Assembly (NCBI GenBank): GCA_002701845.1
Contig: NZXG01000001.1
Span: 1-63,253, forward strand
Length of the DNA stretch: 63,253 nucleotides
Reading direction: 5' to 3'
Source: Pseudomonadales bacterium
Lineage (GTDB): Bacteria; Pseudomonadota; Gammaproteobacteria; Pseudomonadales; Ketobacteraceae
Shown here: positions 36,635 through 60,353 of the stretch, piece after piece
Layout: each line of letters begins with the position of its first letter
Numbering within the stretch: the stretch's first letter is position 1
Position numbers and translations under genes: made by a program
Notes under the pieces: model-generated
What the model was told of the DNA's origin: nothing
Database searches by the model: none
The model's input: only the letters and a program-made list of their open reading frames with translations

Positions 36635-37948
36635 TTACTGATTGGCAGCGCCGTGGGTTTGTTTCAGTTTCGCCAGTTTGCGATACAGGGTGCGTTCGCT
36701 GATGCCCAGGCGTTGGGCCAGGGCCGCCGGAGTGCCCTGATGGATCGATTGGGCATGCTGCAAATACTGCAATTCCAGTTCCGCCAGACTCTGAATTTCC
36801 TCGGCGAAATGGCTGCGTTGGTGTGGGGACACCAGGTCGGTGATTTCCGCGGGCAGATGTTTGGTCTGAATCACATGATCATCCGCCAGCAGCGAGGCCC
36901 GGATCAGAATATTGCGCAGTTCGCGGATATTGCCGGGAAAGCGATAACGGGCAAGCTGCCGCAGAGCCGCCTGACTTACGTAAGTGTGGGCCGGCACTGG
37001 GGGCTTGGCCAGCAGGGCCTCACAGAGTACCGGCAGGTCCTCTTTGCGTTGCCTCAGTGGCGGCAGGTGGATGGGGAAGGTGGCCAGGCGGTAATACAGA
37101 TCTTCGCGGAAGGTACCCGCCGCCACCATGTCCTTGAGGTTTTTGTGGCTGGCGCAGATGAGCCGGAAGTCCGTGCGCTCCATTTCGGTGGCGCCCACCG
37201 GCCGGAACGAGCCGGTTTCCAGCAGTCGCAGTAACTTCACCTGCAGGCTCAGGGGAATGTCCCCCACTTCATCCAGAAACAGGGTGCCGCCGCTGGCGGC
37301 CGCCGCCAGCCCCTCGTGATCACTGCGGGCGCCGGTGAAGGCCCCCTTGCGGTAACCAAACAGCTCGCTCTCGAACAGGTTTTCATTCATGCCGCTGCAT
37401 TCCAGTACCACAAACTTACCCAGCCGGTGCTCGCTGGCATCGTGAATGGCCTTGGCAATCAGCTCTTTGCCAGTGCCGGATTCTCCCTCCAGCAGCACGC
37501 TGACATTGGTGGGGGCCACCCGGTGTACGCTTTCCATCAGCGCTTGAAACGCCGGCGATTCCCCCACCAGGGCCTTTTCCCCCGCCAGGGGGCTGGCGGA
37601 TTCGGACTCATTGATGATCTCGATGTAGCCCAGGTATCCGCCCCGGCCATCCGGTACCGGAGTCACTTCCACGCTGCAGTACTGGCGATGATCCTGCTGC
37701 TGGTGAATGTGCAGGCAGCGGGCCGGGCGACCGGAACTTTGCGCCTGCTGCAGGGGGCAGGATTCGCCATGGGTGTGGCAGGGGCTGTCGTACTGATGGG
37801 AGATCTGAAAACAGCGGCTGTTGGCGCCGGGGGTCCCATAGCGGGCCTCATAGGCTGGGTTGCTGGCCAGAATCCGATAAGCCTTGTCGATAAAAATCGC
37901 CGGCTGATGGAACAGGGAAACCAGGGTTTCCGGCTGTAGCTGCAACAT
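36635..37948 (-). CDS. sigma-54-dependent activator with Cys/His-rich PAS sensor
   Basis: Start at ATG 37948 gives 437 residues; the longer open frame upstream reads through the regulatory region. The N-terminal PAS-like domain (about 10-130) carries the cluster CFQISHQYDSPCHTHGESCP plus RCLHIHQQQ, suggesting a bound metal, Fe-S cluster or redox switch. The AAA+ domain has Walker A GESGTGKE, the sigma-54 contact loop GAFTGA, Walker B GGTLFLDEVGDI and arginine finger region FREDLYYRL. A Fis-type HTH ends the protein (ALAQRLGISERTLYRKLAKL). There is no receiver domain, so it senses directly. It is divergent from cydPABX, which has a -24/-12 promoter, so cytochrome bd is the likely target. Confidence 0.92.
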   Translation of the reverse strand: MLQLQPETLVSLFHQPAIFIDKAYRILASNPAYEARYGTPGANSRCFQISHQYDSPCHTHGESCPLQQAQSSGRPARCLHIHQQQDHRQYCSVEVTPVPDGRGGYLGYIEIINESESASPLAGEKALVGESPAFQALMESVHRVAPTNVSVLLEGESGTGKELIAKAIHDASEHRLGKFVVLECSGMNENLFESELFGYRKGAFTGARSDHEGLAAAASGGTLFLDEVGDIPLSLQVKLLRLLETGSFRPVGATEMERTDFRLICASHKNLKDMVAAGTFREDLYYRLATFPIHLPPLRQRKEDLPVLCEALLAKPPVPAHTYVSQAALRQLARYRFPGNIRELRNILIRASLLADDHVIQTKHLPAEITDLVSPHQRSHFAEEIQSLAELELQYLQHAQSIHQGTPAALAQRLGISERTLYRKLAKLKQTHGAANQ

Positions 37949-37962
37949 GATAGTTTGCCATT

Positions 37963-38006
37963 TTTGACATCGCTCGTCTGTCAAATATGACAAAGGGCGG
38001 TGACAG
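37963..38006. promoter_or_regulatory. dyad-rich upstream activator site
   Basis: TTTGACA (37963-37969) and TGTCAAA (37979-37985) form a perfect 7-base dyad with a 9-base spacer. It interlocks with TGTCA-AATA-TGACA (37979-37992), and another TGACA lies at 38001-38005. The cluster is centred about 125 bases before the predicted cyd transcription start and directly upstream of the activator gene, so it could serve both activation and autoregulation. An AT-rich stretch (38030-38072) separates it from the promoter. Confidence 0.6.
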
Positions 38007-38086
38007 ATGCAAGCATGGCCTCGGGAAGGAAAAATAAAATATATTAAAAACAATAGTTTAAATAATATTTTCTGACGGGGTTCTGC

Positions 38087-38102
38087 TGGCACAAGCAATG
38101 CT
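38087..38102 (+). promoter_or_regulatory. sigma-54 (-24/-12) promoter of cydPABX
   Basis: TGGCAC-AAGCA-ATGCT keeps GG (38088-38089) and GC (38100-38101) with exactly 10 bases between them, matching TGGCAC-N5-TTGCW except for one T. Transcription start would be near 38112, 40 bases before the first gene. Confidence 0.75.
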
Positions 38103-38151
38103 TCATAGTGCATGTAGACTGTTGTTTCTGTCATTATCCCAAGGAGAGGCC

Positions 38152-38331
38152 ATGCCCCAACGGACTCTTTCGCTGCGCAAACATATCTTCTGGATCTTGC
38201 TGGTGAAGCTGGTGCTGATTATTGGCCTGCGGCTGACATTCTTCCCCTCCCTGGAACAGCAGCACCAGCCTGCCGACTTGTATTCTGATTCGCCCGCGGA
38301 GCCCTCTTCGCTAAGGAGTACCCATGATTGA
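38152..38331 (+). CDS. cydP: small membrane protein CydP-like, first gene of cyd operon
   Basis: 59 residues from ATG 38152, with AAGGAG 5 bases upstream. It has a basic N-terminus (MPQRTLSLRKHIFW), one membrane helix (about 12-30) and a polar tail. It overlaps cydA by 8 bases. Position and size match the putative cytochrome oxidase small subunit CydP seen before cydA in other gammaproteobacteria; its sequence is too short for certainty. Confidence 0.7.
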   Translation: MPQRTLSLRKHIFWILLVKLVLIIGLRLTFFPSLEQQHQPADLYSDSPAEPSSLRSTHD

Positions 38332-39880
38332 CGCATCGGCCGTGGAAGTGGCGCGGCTGCAATTTGCACTGACCGCGCTGTTTCATTTTATTTTCGTGCC
38401 GCTGACGCTGGGCCTGTCGTTTTTGCTGGCCATTATGGAATCCGTCTACGTATTGACCCAGAAGCCGGTGTACAAGGACATGACCCGGTTTTGGGGCAAG
38501 CTGTTCGGTATTAATTTCGCGCTGGGGGTCACCACGGGTCTGACCCTGGAATTTCAGTTCGGCACCAACTGGGCTTACTACTCCCATTATGTGGGGGATA
38601 TTTTCGGAGTGCCCCTGGCTATCGAAGGTTTGATGGCGTTTTTTCTGGAAAGCACTTTGATCGGTCTGTTCTTTTTCGGCTGGGATCGCCTCAGTCAGCG
38701 CCAGCATTTGGCGGTAACCTGGCTGGTGGCCCTGGGCTCCAATCTCTCGGCCTTGTGGATTCTGATTGCCAACGGCTGGATGCAAAATCCGGTGGGCGCG
38801 GAATTCAATTACGAAACCATGCGCATGGAAATGACGTCCCTGGCCGAGGTGTTCTTCAATCCCGTGGCCCAGGTGAAATTCGTACATACGGTGGCGGCGG
38901 GGTATGTCACCGGAGCCATGTTCGTGTTGGGTATTTCCAGCTGGTATTTATTGAAGGGTCGGGACATCCCCTTTGCCCGCCGTTCTTTTGCCATTGCCGC
39001 CAGCTTTGGTACCGCATCCATTCTGTCGGTGATCGTGTTGGGCGACGAGTCCGGCTATGAATTGGGTGACGTGCAGAAGGTGAAACTGGCCGCGATTGAG
39101 GCGGAGTGGGAAACACACGAACCGCCGGCGGCGTTCACGGTCATCGGCTGGCCTGATGATGAGGCGGAAACCACGCACTTTGCGGTGCGTATTCCCTGGG
39201 CCTTGGGGCTGATTGCCACCCGCAGTCTGGATGAGCCCGTTTTGGGCATTGCAGAGCTGAAGTCACTGCATGAGCAGCGGATTCGCAATGGTATGGTCGC
39301 CTATGAACGGCTGCAGATCTTGCGGGAGGAGGGGGCCACCCCGGCCAACAAGGCGGCTTTTGAAGAAGTAAGAGAGGACCTGGGTTATGGATTGCTGCTG
39401 AAGCAGGATGTGCCCAATGTGGTGGATGCCACCGAGGCGGATATCCAGGCGGCGGTGGAGCGTTCCATTCCCAAAGTCTGGCCCCTGTTCTTCAGTTTTC
39501 GGGTAATGGTGGGTGCCGGCTTCTTTATGCTGCTGGTATTTTTGCTGGCCTTTTATCAGTCCACCCGCCACCGCAGCGCGGAACGGCGCTGGGTATTATG
39601 GCTGGCGGTATTCTCCATTCCCTTGCCCTGGATTGCGGCGGAGTGCGGCTGGATTGTGTCGGAATACGGCCGTCAGCCCTGGTCCATCGGTGAGATACTT
39701 CCCACTCATCTGTCGGCGTCGGACCTGGCGGCCGGGGATGTGTGGAGCAGTCTGATAGCGATTGTGCTGTTTTATCTGGCGCTGTTTGTGGTGGAGATGT
39801 TTCTGATGATTTATTTCGTGCGCAAGGGGCCCAGCAGCCTGGGCACCGGCCGTTACCACTTTGAGGGAGAGGCTCAATGA
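38324..39880 (+). CDS. cydA: cytochrome bd ubiquinol oxidase subunit I
   Basis: 518 residues, holding the three hemes and the quinol site of the high-affinity oxygen reductase. RLQFALTALFHFIFVPLTLG places the high-spin heme ligand at His21. The b558 ligands are His in VKFVHTVAAGY (near 186) and Met in FSFRVMVGAGFF (near 390). The long Q-loop (about 255-385) marks the E. coli-like L type. GRQPWSIGEILPT is conserved. It overlaps cydB by 4 bases (ATGA). Cytochrome bd tolerates sulfide and low oxygen, which fits the presence of SQR in this window. Confidence 0.97.
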   Translation: MIDASAVEVARLQFALTALFHFIFVPLTLGLSFLLAIMESVYVLTQKPVYKDMTRFWGKLFGINFALGVTTGLTLEFQFGTNWAYYSHYVGDIFGVPLAIEGLMAFFLESTLIGLFFFGWDRLSQRQHLAVTWLVALGSNLSALWILIANGWMQNPVGAEFNYETMRMEMTSLAEVFFNPVAQVKFVHTVAAGYVTGAMFVLGISSWYLLKGRDIPFARRSFAIAASFGTASILSVIVLGDESGYELGDVQKVKLAAIEAEWETHEPPAAFTVIGWPDDEAETTHFAVRIPWALGLIATRSLDEPVLGIAELKSLHEQRIRNGMVAYERLQILREEGATPANKAAFEEVREDLGYGLLLKQDVPNVVDATEADIQAAVERSIPKVWPLFFSFRVMVGAGFFMLLVFLLAFYQSTRHRSAERRWVLWLAVFSIPLPWIAAECGWIVSEYGRQPWSIGEILPTHLSASDLAAGDVWSSLIAIVLFYLALFVVEMFLMIYFVRKGPSSLGTGRYHFEGEAQ

Positions 39881-41019
39881 TCGCCGATTATGAAACCCTG
39901 AAACTGATCTGGTGGGGACTGGTGGGTGTGTTGCTGATCGGTTTCGCCCTCACCGATGGCTTTGATATGGGAGTGGGGGTGTTGCTGCCGTTTCTGGGCA
40001 AGAACGACGACCAGCGCCGGGTGATTATCAACACCGTGGGTCCGCATTGGGAAGGTAATCAGGTCTGGTTTGTCACCGCCGGTGGCGCGCTGTTTGCCGC
40101 CTGGCCCCTGGTGTACGCCAGTGCATTTTCCGGCATGTACGCGGCGATGATCATCACCCTGATGGCGTTGTTCCTGCGCCCGGTGGGTTTTGACTACCGC
40201 TCCAAGCAGGAATCAGCCCGCTGGCGTATGGGCTGGGACTGGGCGTTGTTTACCGGTTCCCTGATTCCGCCGCTTATTTTTGGAGTGGCCTTTGGCAATC
40301 TGTTTCTGGGCCTGCCGTTTCATTTCGATGAGTTGATGCGCCCCCAATACGAAGGCAATCTGTTCGGGCTGCTGACCCTGTTCCCGCTACTGGCCGGTCT
40401 GCTGAGCCTTTCCATGCTGGTGATGCACGGCGGTGTCTGGCTGGGGTTGAAGTCCGATGGCGTGGTGCGGCGGCGGGCAAATCGTGCGGCGTTTCACGCG
40501 GCGGTGATCACCGCGCTGGTATTCGGTGTCTGCGGCATTTGGGTGGCCACGGGGATGAATGGACTGACCATTGTGTCACAGCCGGATATCAACGGCGCCA
40601 TCAATCCTCTGGGTAAGCAGGTGGCGGTGGCGCCGGCGGGCTGGCTGGCCAATTATCAGCACTGGCCGTTGTTAATGCTGTTTCCCGCCCTGGGGCTGAC
40701 CATGCCATTCATGACTGCGTTCTTTTCACTGCGGCAGCGGGAGGGTCTGGCCTTTCTAACCAGCTGCCTGACGATTAGCGGTATCATCGCCACCGCCGGT
40801 GTGTCCCTGTTTCCCTTTGTCATGCCTTCCAGTGTGGAGCCCAGCCACAGCCTTACGCTATGGGATGCCACCTCCAGCGCACTGACCCTGAACGTAATGC
40901 TGATGGTGGCCTGCGTGTTTGTGCCCACGGTACTGGCATACACCTTCTGGAGTTACTACAAGATGTGGGGCCGCATGGATGAACAACAGATTCGCAGTGG
41001 CGGGCATTCGCTGTACTGA
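39877..41019 (+). CDS. cydB: cytochrome bd ubiquinol oxidase subunit II
   Basis: 380 residues with eight to nine membrane helices. It begins MIADYETLKLIWWGLVGVLLIGFALTDGFDMGVGVLLPFLG and contains the WEGNQVWFVTAGGALFAAWP segment and FLRPVGFDYRSK, both hallmarks of CydB. Translationally coupled to cydA. A 65-base gap with AAGAGAAA leads to cydX. Confidence 0.97.
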   Translation: MIADYETLKLIWWGLVGVLLIGFALTDGFDMGVGVLLPFLGKNDDQRRVIINTVGPHWEGNQVWFVTAGGALFAAWPLVYASAFSGMYAAMIITLMALFLRPVGFDYRSKQESARWRMGWDWALFTGSLIPPLIFGVAFGNLFLGLPFHFDELMRPQYEGNLFGLLTLFPLLAGLLSLSMLVMHGGVWLGLKSDGVVRRRANRAAFHAAVITALVFGVCGIWVATGMNGLTIVSQPDINGAINPLGKQVAVAPAGWLANYQHWPLLMLFPALGLTMPFMTAFFSLRQREGLAFLTSCLTISGIIATAGVSLFPFVMPSSVEPSHSLTLWDATSSALTLNVMLMVACVFVPTVLAYTFWSYYKMWGRMDEQQIRSGGHSLY

Positions 41020-41084: not shown

Positions 41085-41195
41085 ATGTGGTATTTTACCT
41101 GGATTCTGGGCGTATTACTGGCCTGCGCCTTTGGCATCATCAACGTGATGTGGCTGGAGGTAAACGAGGATCTGGACCGGCCGGATCCGGATTAG
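41085..41195 (+). CDS. cydX: cytochrome bd small subunit CydX
   Basis: 36 residues, MWYFTWILGVLLACAFGIIN then VMWLEVNEDLD. The N-terminal MWYFxWILGxLLAC signature equals E. coli CydX. One membrane helix; required for stability of the oxidase. Preceded by AAGAGAAACG. Its stop overlaps the stop of the convergent esterase gene by 4 bases. Confidence 0.94.
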   Translation: MWYFTWILGVLLACAFGIINVMWLEVNEDLDRPDPD

Positions 41196-58143: not shown

Positions 58144-60353
58144 ATGAATAATCTGGTGGATTTTCTTATCCGGCACGGGTGATTTTGTTTCTGGGGTCTA
58201 TCCTGTTGATGGGCTTTAGCGTGTTCGCGTTCAAGTATTTCAGCTTTGACTCCTCGCCCTATATCTTTTTTGAAGAGGGTAATGAGCATTTCAAACGGCT
58301 GGAGCGGATGGAAAACACCTACGGTCGGGATTTCAAAGTGTTCTTCATGATCAGTGCCCAAGAGGGTGATATGTTCACCCCGGAGAACTTAAGAGTGGTG
58401 GAGGAGGTCACCAAAAAGGCCTGGACCTATCCTTATGTGCGGCGGGTGGATTCTGTCATTAACTTCCAGCACATCGAAAGCCAAGACGATGTGGTGAATG
58501 TGGACAGCCTGGTCACGGATGAAGTGCTGGAAAACCCTGAATTGCTGGCGCAACGCAAGCAAATTGCGCTTACCAATCAGGATGTGGTGAAGCGACTGAT
58601 CTCCGAAGACGGCAAACACGTGGCCATTTCCATGGCGCTTACCATGGAGCCGGAAGAGACTCAGACTCCGGAAGCCATGGATCTGGTGGAGCAGATGTAT
58701 GCGCTAAAAGAGCGTATCAAGAAAGAGAATCCAAAGCTGGATGTGGCGCTGGTGGGCAATCTGATCAGCACCTACCACGGTACTTATGCCATCGGTATCG
58801 ATCTGATCACCCTGATACCGTTGATGTTCGTCCTGATGTTTGTCCTGTTGGCGGTTTTGTTGCGCAGCATTTCATCCATTGTTATTACCTTTTTGATAGC
58901 AATCGGTTGCACCCTGGGGGCGATTGGTTTCTCTTCGCTGTTCGGCATTGTGTTTTCCATGATTGCCATGAATACGGTGATTATTTGTCTGACCATTTCC
59001 ATCGCTCATTGCATTCATCTGTTCGTCGCGTTTGGCAAGGCTCTACGAACCAAGGACAAAGCGGCTGCACTGAGGGAGAGTCTGATGCTGAACTTCAAGG
59101 CCGTGTCGCTCACCAGTCTGATGACCGTCATTGGTTTCCTGAGCCTGAATACCAGTGATCTACCGCCGGCGGCCGCCCTGGGCGAGTTCGTGATCCGCCG
59201 GCGCTATCAGGTGTTGGTGGTGACCGGTCTCCTGGCTGTTATCGCCGGTGCCCTGAGCCTGAACAACCGGCTCAACGATCGCCTGGTGGAAACGCTGCGC
59301 GAACCCCATGTGTTTCGTACCGATACCCGGCTGGTGGATCAACACTTCGGGTCCATGTACATCAATAACTATGACATGGATTCCGGTGAGGAGTATGGCA
59401 TTACCGATCCGGAGTACCTGAACCACCTGGATCAATTCGCCGCTTTTCTACGGGCGCAGCCGGAAATCTCCAGCGTGCTGGTGTTTTCCGACATTATCAA
59501 ACAGCTCAATCAGAAGATGAACAACGATGACCCTGAATACTACCGGATTCCCGACAACCGGGAGCTGGTGTCTCAGTACATGTTGTTGTACGAGCTTTCC
59601 CTGCCCATGGGCCTGGACCTGTCGGAGCGGGTGACGCCGGATCGCAGTCGGACCTTGGTGATTGCCACCATGCCCACCATGGACACTCACCTGAATATCG
59701 AACTGGACCAGCGTATTAACCGCTGGCAGGAGGAAAACCTGCCAGCTTCCATGCGGGTTGGCACCTCGTCCATCTCCACTATCTGGTCGTACCTGACCCT
59801 GAACAGCTTGCGTAATTCCATAGAGGGCTCATTCGTGGCACTGGGGTTGATTTCCCTGGTACTGCTGTTTGTGCTGCGCTCCATTCGTTACGGGCTGATC
59901 AGCCTGGTACCCAATATGATGCCGGCGATATTCGGTCTTGGGTTTTGGTATTTGTACTCCGGCGAGATTGGCCTGGGGCTGATGTCGGTGACCATTATCA
60001 CCATCGGTATCGTGGTGGATGACACCGTGCACTTTCTGGTGAAGTATAAAAAGTCGCTCCACGATACCGGTAGCAAGGAAGAGGCCGTGCGAATGACCTT
60101 CCACTAGGTGGGGCCGGCGCTATTGATTACCACCATTGTGTTGGCGGTTGGTTTTTCCATACTCATGTTCTCCGGCATTACGCTGAACAGCAGCCTGGGA
60201 ATTATGACCGGGGTCATTCTGACGGCGGCGTTCCTGCTGGACGTGCTGTTATTGCCGGCGCTGTTGCTGGTGTTTGACCGGGACCCGGCTAAGGCGACGA
60301 AAACCGCTGAGACAGCTGATACACAGGCTGAGGAACCCCTGCCGGTTCGTTAG
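58144..60353 (+). pseudogene. RND-superfamily (MMPL-like) transporter, broken
   Basis: The reading begins MNNLVDFLIRH at 58144 and then shifts frame near 58176, continuing as VILFLGSILLMGFSV; one C missing from CAC-CGG-GTG would account for it. A large extracellular loop follows, then the first transmembrane bundle. Near 59165 the sequence jumps from LNTSDLPP to LGEFVIRRR where relatives carry a further membrane helix and linker of roughly 45-70 residues. At 60105 an in-frame TAG interrupts RMTFH-VGPALLITT; the rest runs to 60353. Two lesions (frameshift, stop) are visible directly and the deletion is inferred. A divided or recoded gene is possible but unlikely. Confidence 0.8.

Follow-up and report, generated by a model that had tools for sequence, protein, structure and literature searches.

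A FisR-type sigma-54 activator divergent from a cytochrome bd operon: sequence evidence for a putative sulfur-responsive switch

The control of pdo-sqr by FisR has already been published, and cytochrome bd supports respiration when sulfide blocks other oxidases. According to the available part of one review, FisR detects reactive sulfur via three conserved cysteines (PMC9774590), and the accessible portions of this and three further reviews describe a response to sulfide or reactive sulfur (PMC9774590, PMC8148161, PMC12170894, PMC11211675). In the available excerpt on Acinetobacter baumannii, FisR activates an operon containing pdo and sqr and is reported to be without regulatory cysteines, and cydAB is induced by sulfide with no direct regulator named there (PMC7315123); FisR proteins need not, therefore, all sense via cysteines. 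For cytochrome bd itself, CydE of Alishewanella appears in the accessible part of its source as a GbsR-type repressor (PMC6096048). In the excerpts returned by an open-licence literature search, no FisR or other sigma-54 activator was described as controlling cytochrome bd, an absence from these sources that is not proof. The Desulfovibrio sigma-54 regulome was considered as a precedent and set aside, with no occurrence of 'cyd' in its text. C. necator cydA2B2 was likewise rejected: in the available part of the source, the authors' BPROM run predicts that the selected mutation creates a sigma-70 promoter, and rpoN mutations did not significantly raise the growth rate under CO (PMC10164946).

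The locus described here lies within a stretch of 63,253 nucleotides, the whole of which is referred to as the window. Two divergent genes are separated by a 203-bp region (37949..38151) that was read directly. On the minus strand lies the gene for a 437-residue sigma-54 activator (36635..37948), and on the plus strand cydP (38152..38331), cydA (38324..39880), cydB (39877..41019) and cydX (41085..41195) follow one another. The cydP product, a small putative oxidase subunit of 59 residues that is kept in five related genomes, scored 22.8 bits against the NCBIfam model small_CydP and so missed the cut-off of 29.6. The remaining assignments are firmer: subunit I of cytochrome bd (CydA, 518 residues) matches PF01654 with an E value of 4.5e-173, subunit II (CydB, 380 residues) matches PF02322 and passes TIGR00203 with 506.9 bits over a cut-off of 117.3, and the small subunit CydX (36 residues) passes TIGR02106 with 64.4 bits over a cut-off of 31.6. 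With cydA, cydB and the small subunit gene cydX, the operon is of the cytochrome bd-I type. The home genome of the window (4,895,318 bases) also encodes an RpoN-type gene.

The activator contains PAS_4, Sigma54_activat, AAA lid and HTH_8 (Fis-type helix-turn-helix) domains, and GAFTGA is present in the translation. The sequence-only reading had described the divergent gene as a complete sigma-54 activator with GAFTGA, and this is borne out by the full domain set, but the reading missed the family to which the protein belongs. Aligned with a protein of Cupriavidus pinatubonensis HN-2 (L092), whose gene is divergent from pdo and sqr, the activator is identical at 202 of 424 positions (48%), and its cysteines C46, C57 and C64 (C-X10-C-X6-C; 37757..37813, minus strand) align with C53, C64 and C71 of that protein, which we take to be the published FisR residue numbers. 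On the PAS-type sensor, the AAA+ domain with GAFTGA, the Fis-type helix-turn-helix and the register of the three sensor cysteines, the activator is, as far as sequence assigns it, a member of the FisR family of sulfane-sulfur sensors. Scanning species genomes yielded 212 confirmed homologues, of which the best 80 were analysed. The C-X10-C-X6-C spacing is present in all of these 80 and in all 20 rows of a separate comparison, and GAFTGA is exact in 74 of the 80; five of the others read GSFTGA in the sigma-54 contact loop (L062, L071, L078, L079 and L084), and the sixth is a truncated regulator (L097). In the home genome the sensor part matches once. In an AlphaFold2 model of the activator (mean pLDDT 88.2), strands and helices follow a PAS-like order over residues 17-114, and the best PDB matches to the model are NtrC-family activators such as FleQ, NtrX and ZraR (1ojl). 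NorR and other named activators were rejected as assignments, since the protein misses the cut-offs of all of the NCBIfam models listed (25 of the 26 matched).

Within the intergenic region, a near-consensus -24/-12 element, TGGCACAAGCAATGCT, is found on the plus strand at 38087..38102, ahead of cydP-cydA-cydB-cydX. Exactly 10 bases lie between its GG (38088-38089) and its GC (38100-38101), in agreement with TGGCAY-N6-TGC and the GG-N10-GC spacing of sigma-54 dependent promoters, and 49 bases separate its end from the cydP ATG at 38152; the sequence-only reading had placed such an element here, about 50 bases before cydP, and its position and spacing stand. From the element, transcription would be predicted to start near 38112. 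Against TGGCAC-N5-TTGCW the element has one mismatch, and one further one-mismatch site occurs in the window, at 59836. Matches with up to two mismatches number 40 in the window, against a mean of 46.1 in shuffled sequence, and since such matches are as common as in shuffles, the element by itself is weak evidence. A chance promoter is nevertheless rejected because of its conservation and because the composite of operator and promoter, TGTCA-N4-TGRCA-N70-100-TGGCAY-N6-TGC, has a single match in the home genome, at the cyd locus; the reversed composite, searched as a control, had no match in the home genome. Between the promoter and cydP, a 16-nucleotide block at 38118-38133, ACTGTTGTTTCTGTCA, is common to the window and three family members (L010, L011 and L012) and is absent in two others (L013 and L014).

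Two candidate operator dyads of one pattern, TGYCA-N4-TGRCA, stand in tandem 23 bp apart, TGCCATTTTTGACA at 37956..37969, found by pattern match, and TGTCAAATATGACA at 37979..37992, the longest well-conserved intergenic stretch. In the window, TGTCA-N4-TGACA is matched exactly only once. The second dyad is centred 101 bp ahead of the promoter element, and the first begins only 7 bases beyond the start codon of the regulator (37946-37948), so the regulator likely autoregulates. A dyad-rich site had been drawn earlier at 37963-38006; the site is real, but its limits have been redrawn as the two tandem dyads, which begin at 37956, to the left of 37963. The AT-rich stretch claimed between dyads and promoter was recovered as a spacer at 38026..38072, a possible bend, with 89% A+T compared to 42% for the window, a level that only 7.9e-5 of the window's 47-mers reach. 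Its base sequence is poorly conserved in an alignment of six regions. An IHF site in the spacer was considered and discarded, with no exact WATCAA-N4-TTR among the matches listed for 37949-38152.

To assess conservation, the N-terminal part of the regulator was searched in 96 genomes, of which 21 matched, the home genome among them. Five of the other matching genomes, all from the same family group, retain the regulator, cydP and cydA (L010-L014), and each of them has a TGGCAY-type GG-N10-GC element 138-140 bp from the start of the regulator. Conservation in relatives that keep the divergent pair had been proposed as a check for both elements; the promoter withstands it fully, at the same distance in all five, whereas the dyads do so in part, with an exact TGYCA-N4-TGRCA in four of the five and TGACAAATATGGCA in the fifth. 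The second dyad of L013, the same locus as L034, reads TGTCAAATATGACC. In the six-region alignment, in which the mean column identity is 64%, the second dyad and the promoter are among the invariant blocks.

A genome of the same genus, G003, provides a comparison. Its cyd locus shares the gene order of the window, running from pntB and a tesB-like gene through cydP, cydA and cydB to a WS/DGAT-like gene on the other side; between these same neighbours the regulator is absent, and the whole genome of G003 has no match to the N-terminal part of the regulator at E <= 0.001. The region upstream of cydP in G003 contains no TGGCA-type GG-N10-GC element and no full dyad. What it does contain (L115), 57 bases before cydP, is TGGCATAGTCAGTTTGCC, reading TGGCAT...TTTGCC with GG-N12-GC spacing. 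Sigma-54 promoters are not known to tolerate a spacer two bases longer. The G003 sequence looks, from its letters, like a broken promoter relic, perhaps after loss of the regulator, or like a chance occurrence, and the contrast with the window is thus one of intact against broken or chance, rather than of present against blank. The central claim of the sequence-only reading, sigma-54 control of the cyd operon by the divergent activator, gains support from the conserved promoter and from the joint absence of the regulator and of intact elements in G003.

We also considered cyd loci chosen by CydA alone, a sample of 39, each with up to ~1.5 kb of flank. The regulator lies within 11 of the 39 loci and is absent from 28; the 11 comprise the locus of the window, those of the five family members and five others. 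In this set dyads were found in 6/11 loci with the regulator and 0/28 without, and a strict promoter score was passed by 7/11 and 3/28, respectively. Outside the family, the promoter score was passed at one of the five regulator-bearing loci (L127) and an exact dyad within 500 bp was found at one of five (L132). Reading of the sequences after the count showed that L139 has a promoter and a dyad ahead of an intervening gene, that L132 and L144 carry GG-N10-GT and that L143 carries GG-N10-GA. The loci without an adjacent regulator that pass the promoter score are L133, L140 and L148, and a FisR-type gene with the cysteine spacing lies ~9 kb away from L133. By eye, GA stands for GC at -12 in both L092 (TGGCACGAGTTTTGAG) and L143 (TGGCACAGGATTTGAC).

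The same sample bears on another explanation, in which the -24/-12 element is minor or inactive and cyd depends mainly, as is usual, on a sigma-70 promoter controlled by ANR/FNR or ArcA. Among the CydA-chosen loci, FNR-type sites were listed for 9 of the 28 that lack the regulator and for 2 of the 11 that have it, which suggests that FNR control may be common, and a second promoter at cyd is possible. In the window, however, a search of 37700-38400 found no sigma-70 promoter-like site, and no FNR-type TTGA-N6-TCAA was among the matches listed for 37949-38152; moreover, the distance of the -24/-12 element is constant across six genomes, and in G003, where the regulator is missing, the element is not intact. 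We consider a mainly sigma-70 origin of the cyd transcript very unlikely, and retain control through the sigma-54 element as the reading of this promoter.

Among the 80 homologues, each locus was classed by the nearest recognised divergent gene, with small unrecognised genes possibly lying between; in L053 and L076 that gene is 540 and 919 bp away, respectively. The divergent gene is cydP or cydA in 28 of the best 80 of 212 (5 with cydP recognised, 15 of bd type and 8 of CIO type), a share that applies to the nearest homologues and not to the whole family, pdo in 34, sqr in one and another gene in 17. A strong promoter element, at a score threshold of 17.5 that was chosen after the scores were seen, is present at 26/28 cyd, 25/35 pdo/sqr and 7/17 other loci, against means of 1.4 (maximum 7), 1.5 and 0.9 in shuffled sequence, and a dyad is present at 19/28, 16/35 and 7/17, against means of 0.07 (maximum 1), 0.07 and 0.02; the loci are related to one another, so that these counts are not independent. 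Successive dyads are 21-23 bp apart in 22 of 30 pairs under a relaxed pattern, and the distance from dyad centre to promoter has a median of 115 bp (n = 34; a single outlier lies at -159). The operator and promoter are common to cyd-facing and pdo/sqr-facing loci, which argues for one regulatory code for both. A sigma-54 activator at cyd had been called an unusual mode of control; the control itself is supported by the comparison, but the arrangement recurs in other genera.

Several individual loci depart from the common arrangements. In L052, L069, L091, L093 and L104, pdo-sqr is divergent and cydAB lies just behind the regulator on the same strand. In L086 a FisR-type gene faces what by eye is a peroxiredoxin-like gene; both a strong promoter element and a dyad are present there, an arrangement that suggests further FisR targets. 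The FisR-type gene of L057, also with a strong promoter element, faces what by eye are cbb3-type oxidase-like genes after one ORF.

A quick tree of 81 rows, from which the truncated L097 was left out and which includes three long-branch rows, requires on its starred branches at least five label changes for bd-type cyd and at least six for CIO-type; the cyd-versus-pdo change count, in which gains and losses are indistinguishable, does not include the 17 loci with other genes. The CIO label is loosely clustered on this tree (5 of 500 shuffles were as low). These changes argue against the activator controlling other genes and standing beside cyd by accident. Enhancer-binding proteins can work from a distance, and in one genome (G130) ~9 kb separate a FisR-type gene from a cyd operon that has such a promoter element; both would fit an accidental position. 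The homologues, on the other hand, face cyd in 28 of the best 80 of 212, with the repeated label changes just given, and the composite pattern matches once in the home genome, precisely at cyd. An accidental position is, in our judgement, extremely improbable, and cyd is taken as the target of the divergent activator.

The identity of the signal is a separate question, on which the genes around the homologues are informative. Among the best 80 of 212, pdo and sqr follow cydB at all eight CIO-type cydAB loci, and the bd-type loci L044 and L054 carry pdo, which supports a link to sulfide; L068 has a weak match (30%). The pdo matches are partial at contig ends in L040 and L060 and weak in L105 (31%). 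In the home genome pdo is located away from the cyd locus, at G000:C3:149614-150459. There (L121, 1100-2361) the pdo-type gene and an ArsR-family gene diverge, and a TSUP-type match lies close by; the ArsR-family protein resembles BigR, below the BigR cut-off (96.1 versus 155 bits). With pdo elsewhere and beside an ArsR-type gene, the link of the cyd locus to sulfide oxidation is not direct in this genome, in which sulfide oxidation and the oxidase seem, from this gene order, to be under two different sensors.

It could be that the activator does exert sigma-54 control but answers to something other than sulfane sulfur, its PAS domain binding a metal or other ligand and reporting redox state, NO, cyanide or oxygen. 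H51, H80 and H82 are invariant alongside C46, C57 and C64 in comparisons of 20 and 30 rows, and the clade of the regulator sits on a long stem branch of the quick tree (1.32 changes per column), so that its ligand may have shifted; the location of pdo outside the cyd operon in the home genome points the same way, as do ties of cytochrome bd to sulfide and chromate (PMC6096048) and to CO (PMC10164946) in the available parts of these sources. Nonetheless, the cysteine register is identical to that of the C. pinatubonensis protein, and among the best 80 of 212, homologues with the same cysteines face pdo or sqr at 35 loci and stand at the head of CIO-pdo-sqr clusters at eight. A different ligand is possible but, on balance, unlikely.

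Sulfane sulfur is thus retained as the signal of the reading that we regard as probable, namely that the locus is a dedicated sulfur-responsive switch, in which reactive sulfur would activate the FisR-family regulator and bring about sigma-54 transcription of a sulfide-tolerant oxidase. Reactive sulfane sulfur, as persulfide or polysulfide derived from H2S, would modify C46, C57 and C64 of the PAS domain, and the activator, bound to the tandem TGYCA-N4-TGRCA dyads (37956-37992), would assemble on the DNA. The A+T-rich spacer may then permit looping to the sigma-54 RNA polymerase poised at 38087-38102, where GAFTGA-driven ATP hydrolysis would open the promoter and cydP-cydA-cydB-cydX would be transcribed. 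The resulting quinol oxidase would be expected to tolerate sulfide.

If true, this would explain how cells keep breathing with sulfide present, through a concrete mechanism with mapped parts in which a known class of sulfur sensor acts directly on an oxidase operon, and it links sigma-54 activators with sulfide-resistant respiration. It also leads to predictions of the genomes in which sulfide should induce the oxidase, and provides an operator pattern for searching, with G003, of the same genus and without the regulator, as a natural contrast. We lean slightly towards a wider proposal, that for bd-type oxidases of Gammaproteobacteria FNR/ArcA control has a widespread alternative in FisR-type sigma-54 control, one that has been rewired repeatedly and is triggered by reactive sulfur and not by low oxygen, and in which SQR/PDO and a sulfide-proof oxidase, in one operon or two, would share one operator code.

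With regard to known systems, the AAA+ domain and fold of the activator are those of NorR/NtrC/FleQ-type proteins, the nearest solved relatives being ZraR and FleQ by sequence and FleQ by fold, but the sensor domain differs, and the PDB sequence matches listed all start at residue 103 or later. CydE of Alishewanella, the MarR-family regulator of CioAB in Chromobacterium and YgaV of E. coli (SqrR/BigR type) likewise represent local or sulfide-linked control of cytochrome bd; unlike the activator of the window, CydE and the Chromobacterium regulator are repressors, and in the available parts of the sources neither they nor YgaV is described as a sigma-54 activator. The FisR of A. baumannii resembles it as a sigma-54 activator in a sulfide response that also induces cydAB, whereas it is divergent from pdo-sqr and reported to be without the cysteines, and direct control of cydAB is not described in the accessible portion of the source (PMC7315123). 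The window also has the divergent sigma-54 promoter with upstream operator dyads of the published FisR regulon, in which the adjacent targets are pdo/sqr; here the adjacent target is cydPABX, which places the locus outside that regulon and the protein alone in the family. Finally, the FisR of C. pinatubonensis (strain HN-2) shares with the activator the domain order, the three cysteines in register, the divergent orientation and 48% identity. No strong GG-N10-GC match was scored in the C. pinatubonensis region, where TGGCACGAGTTTTGAG (GG-N10-GA) is seen by eye, and that FisR faces pdo-sqr, whereas the activator of the window faces a terminal oxidase operon and pdo is found elsewhere.
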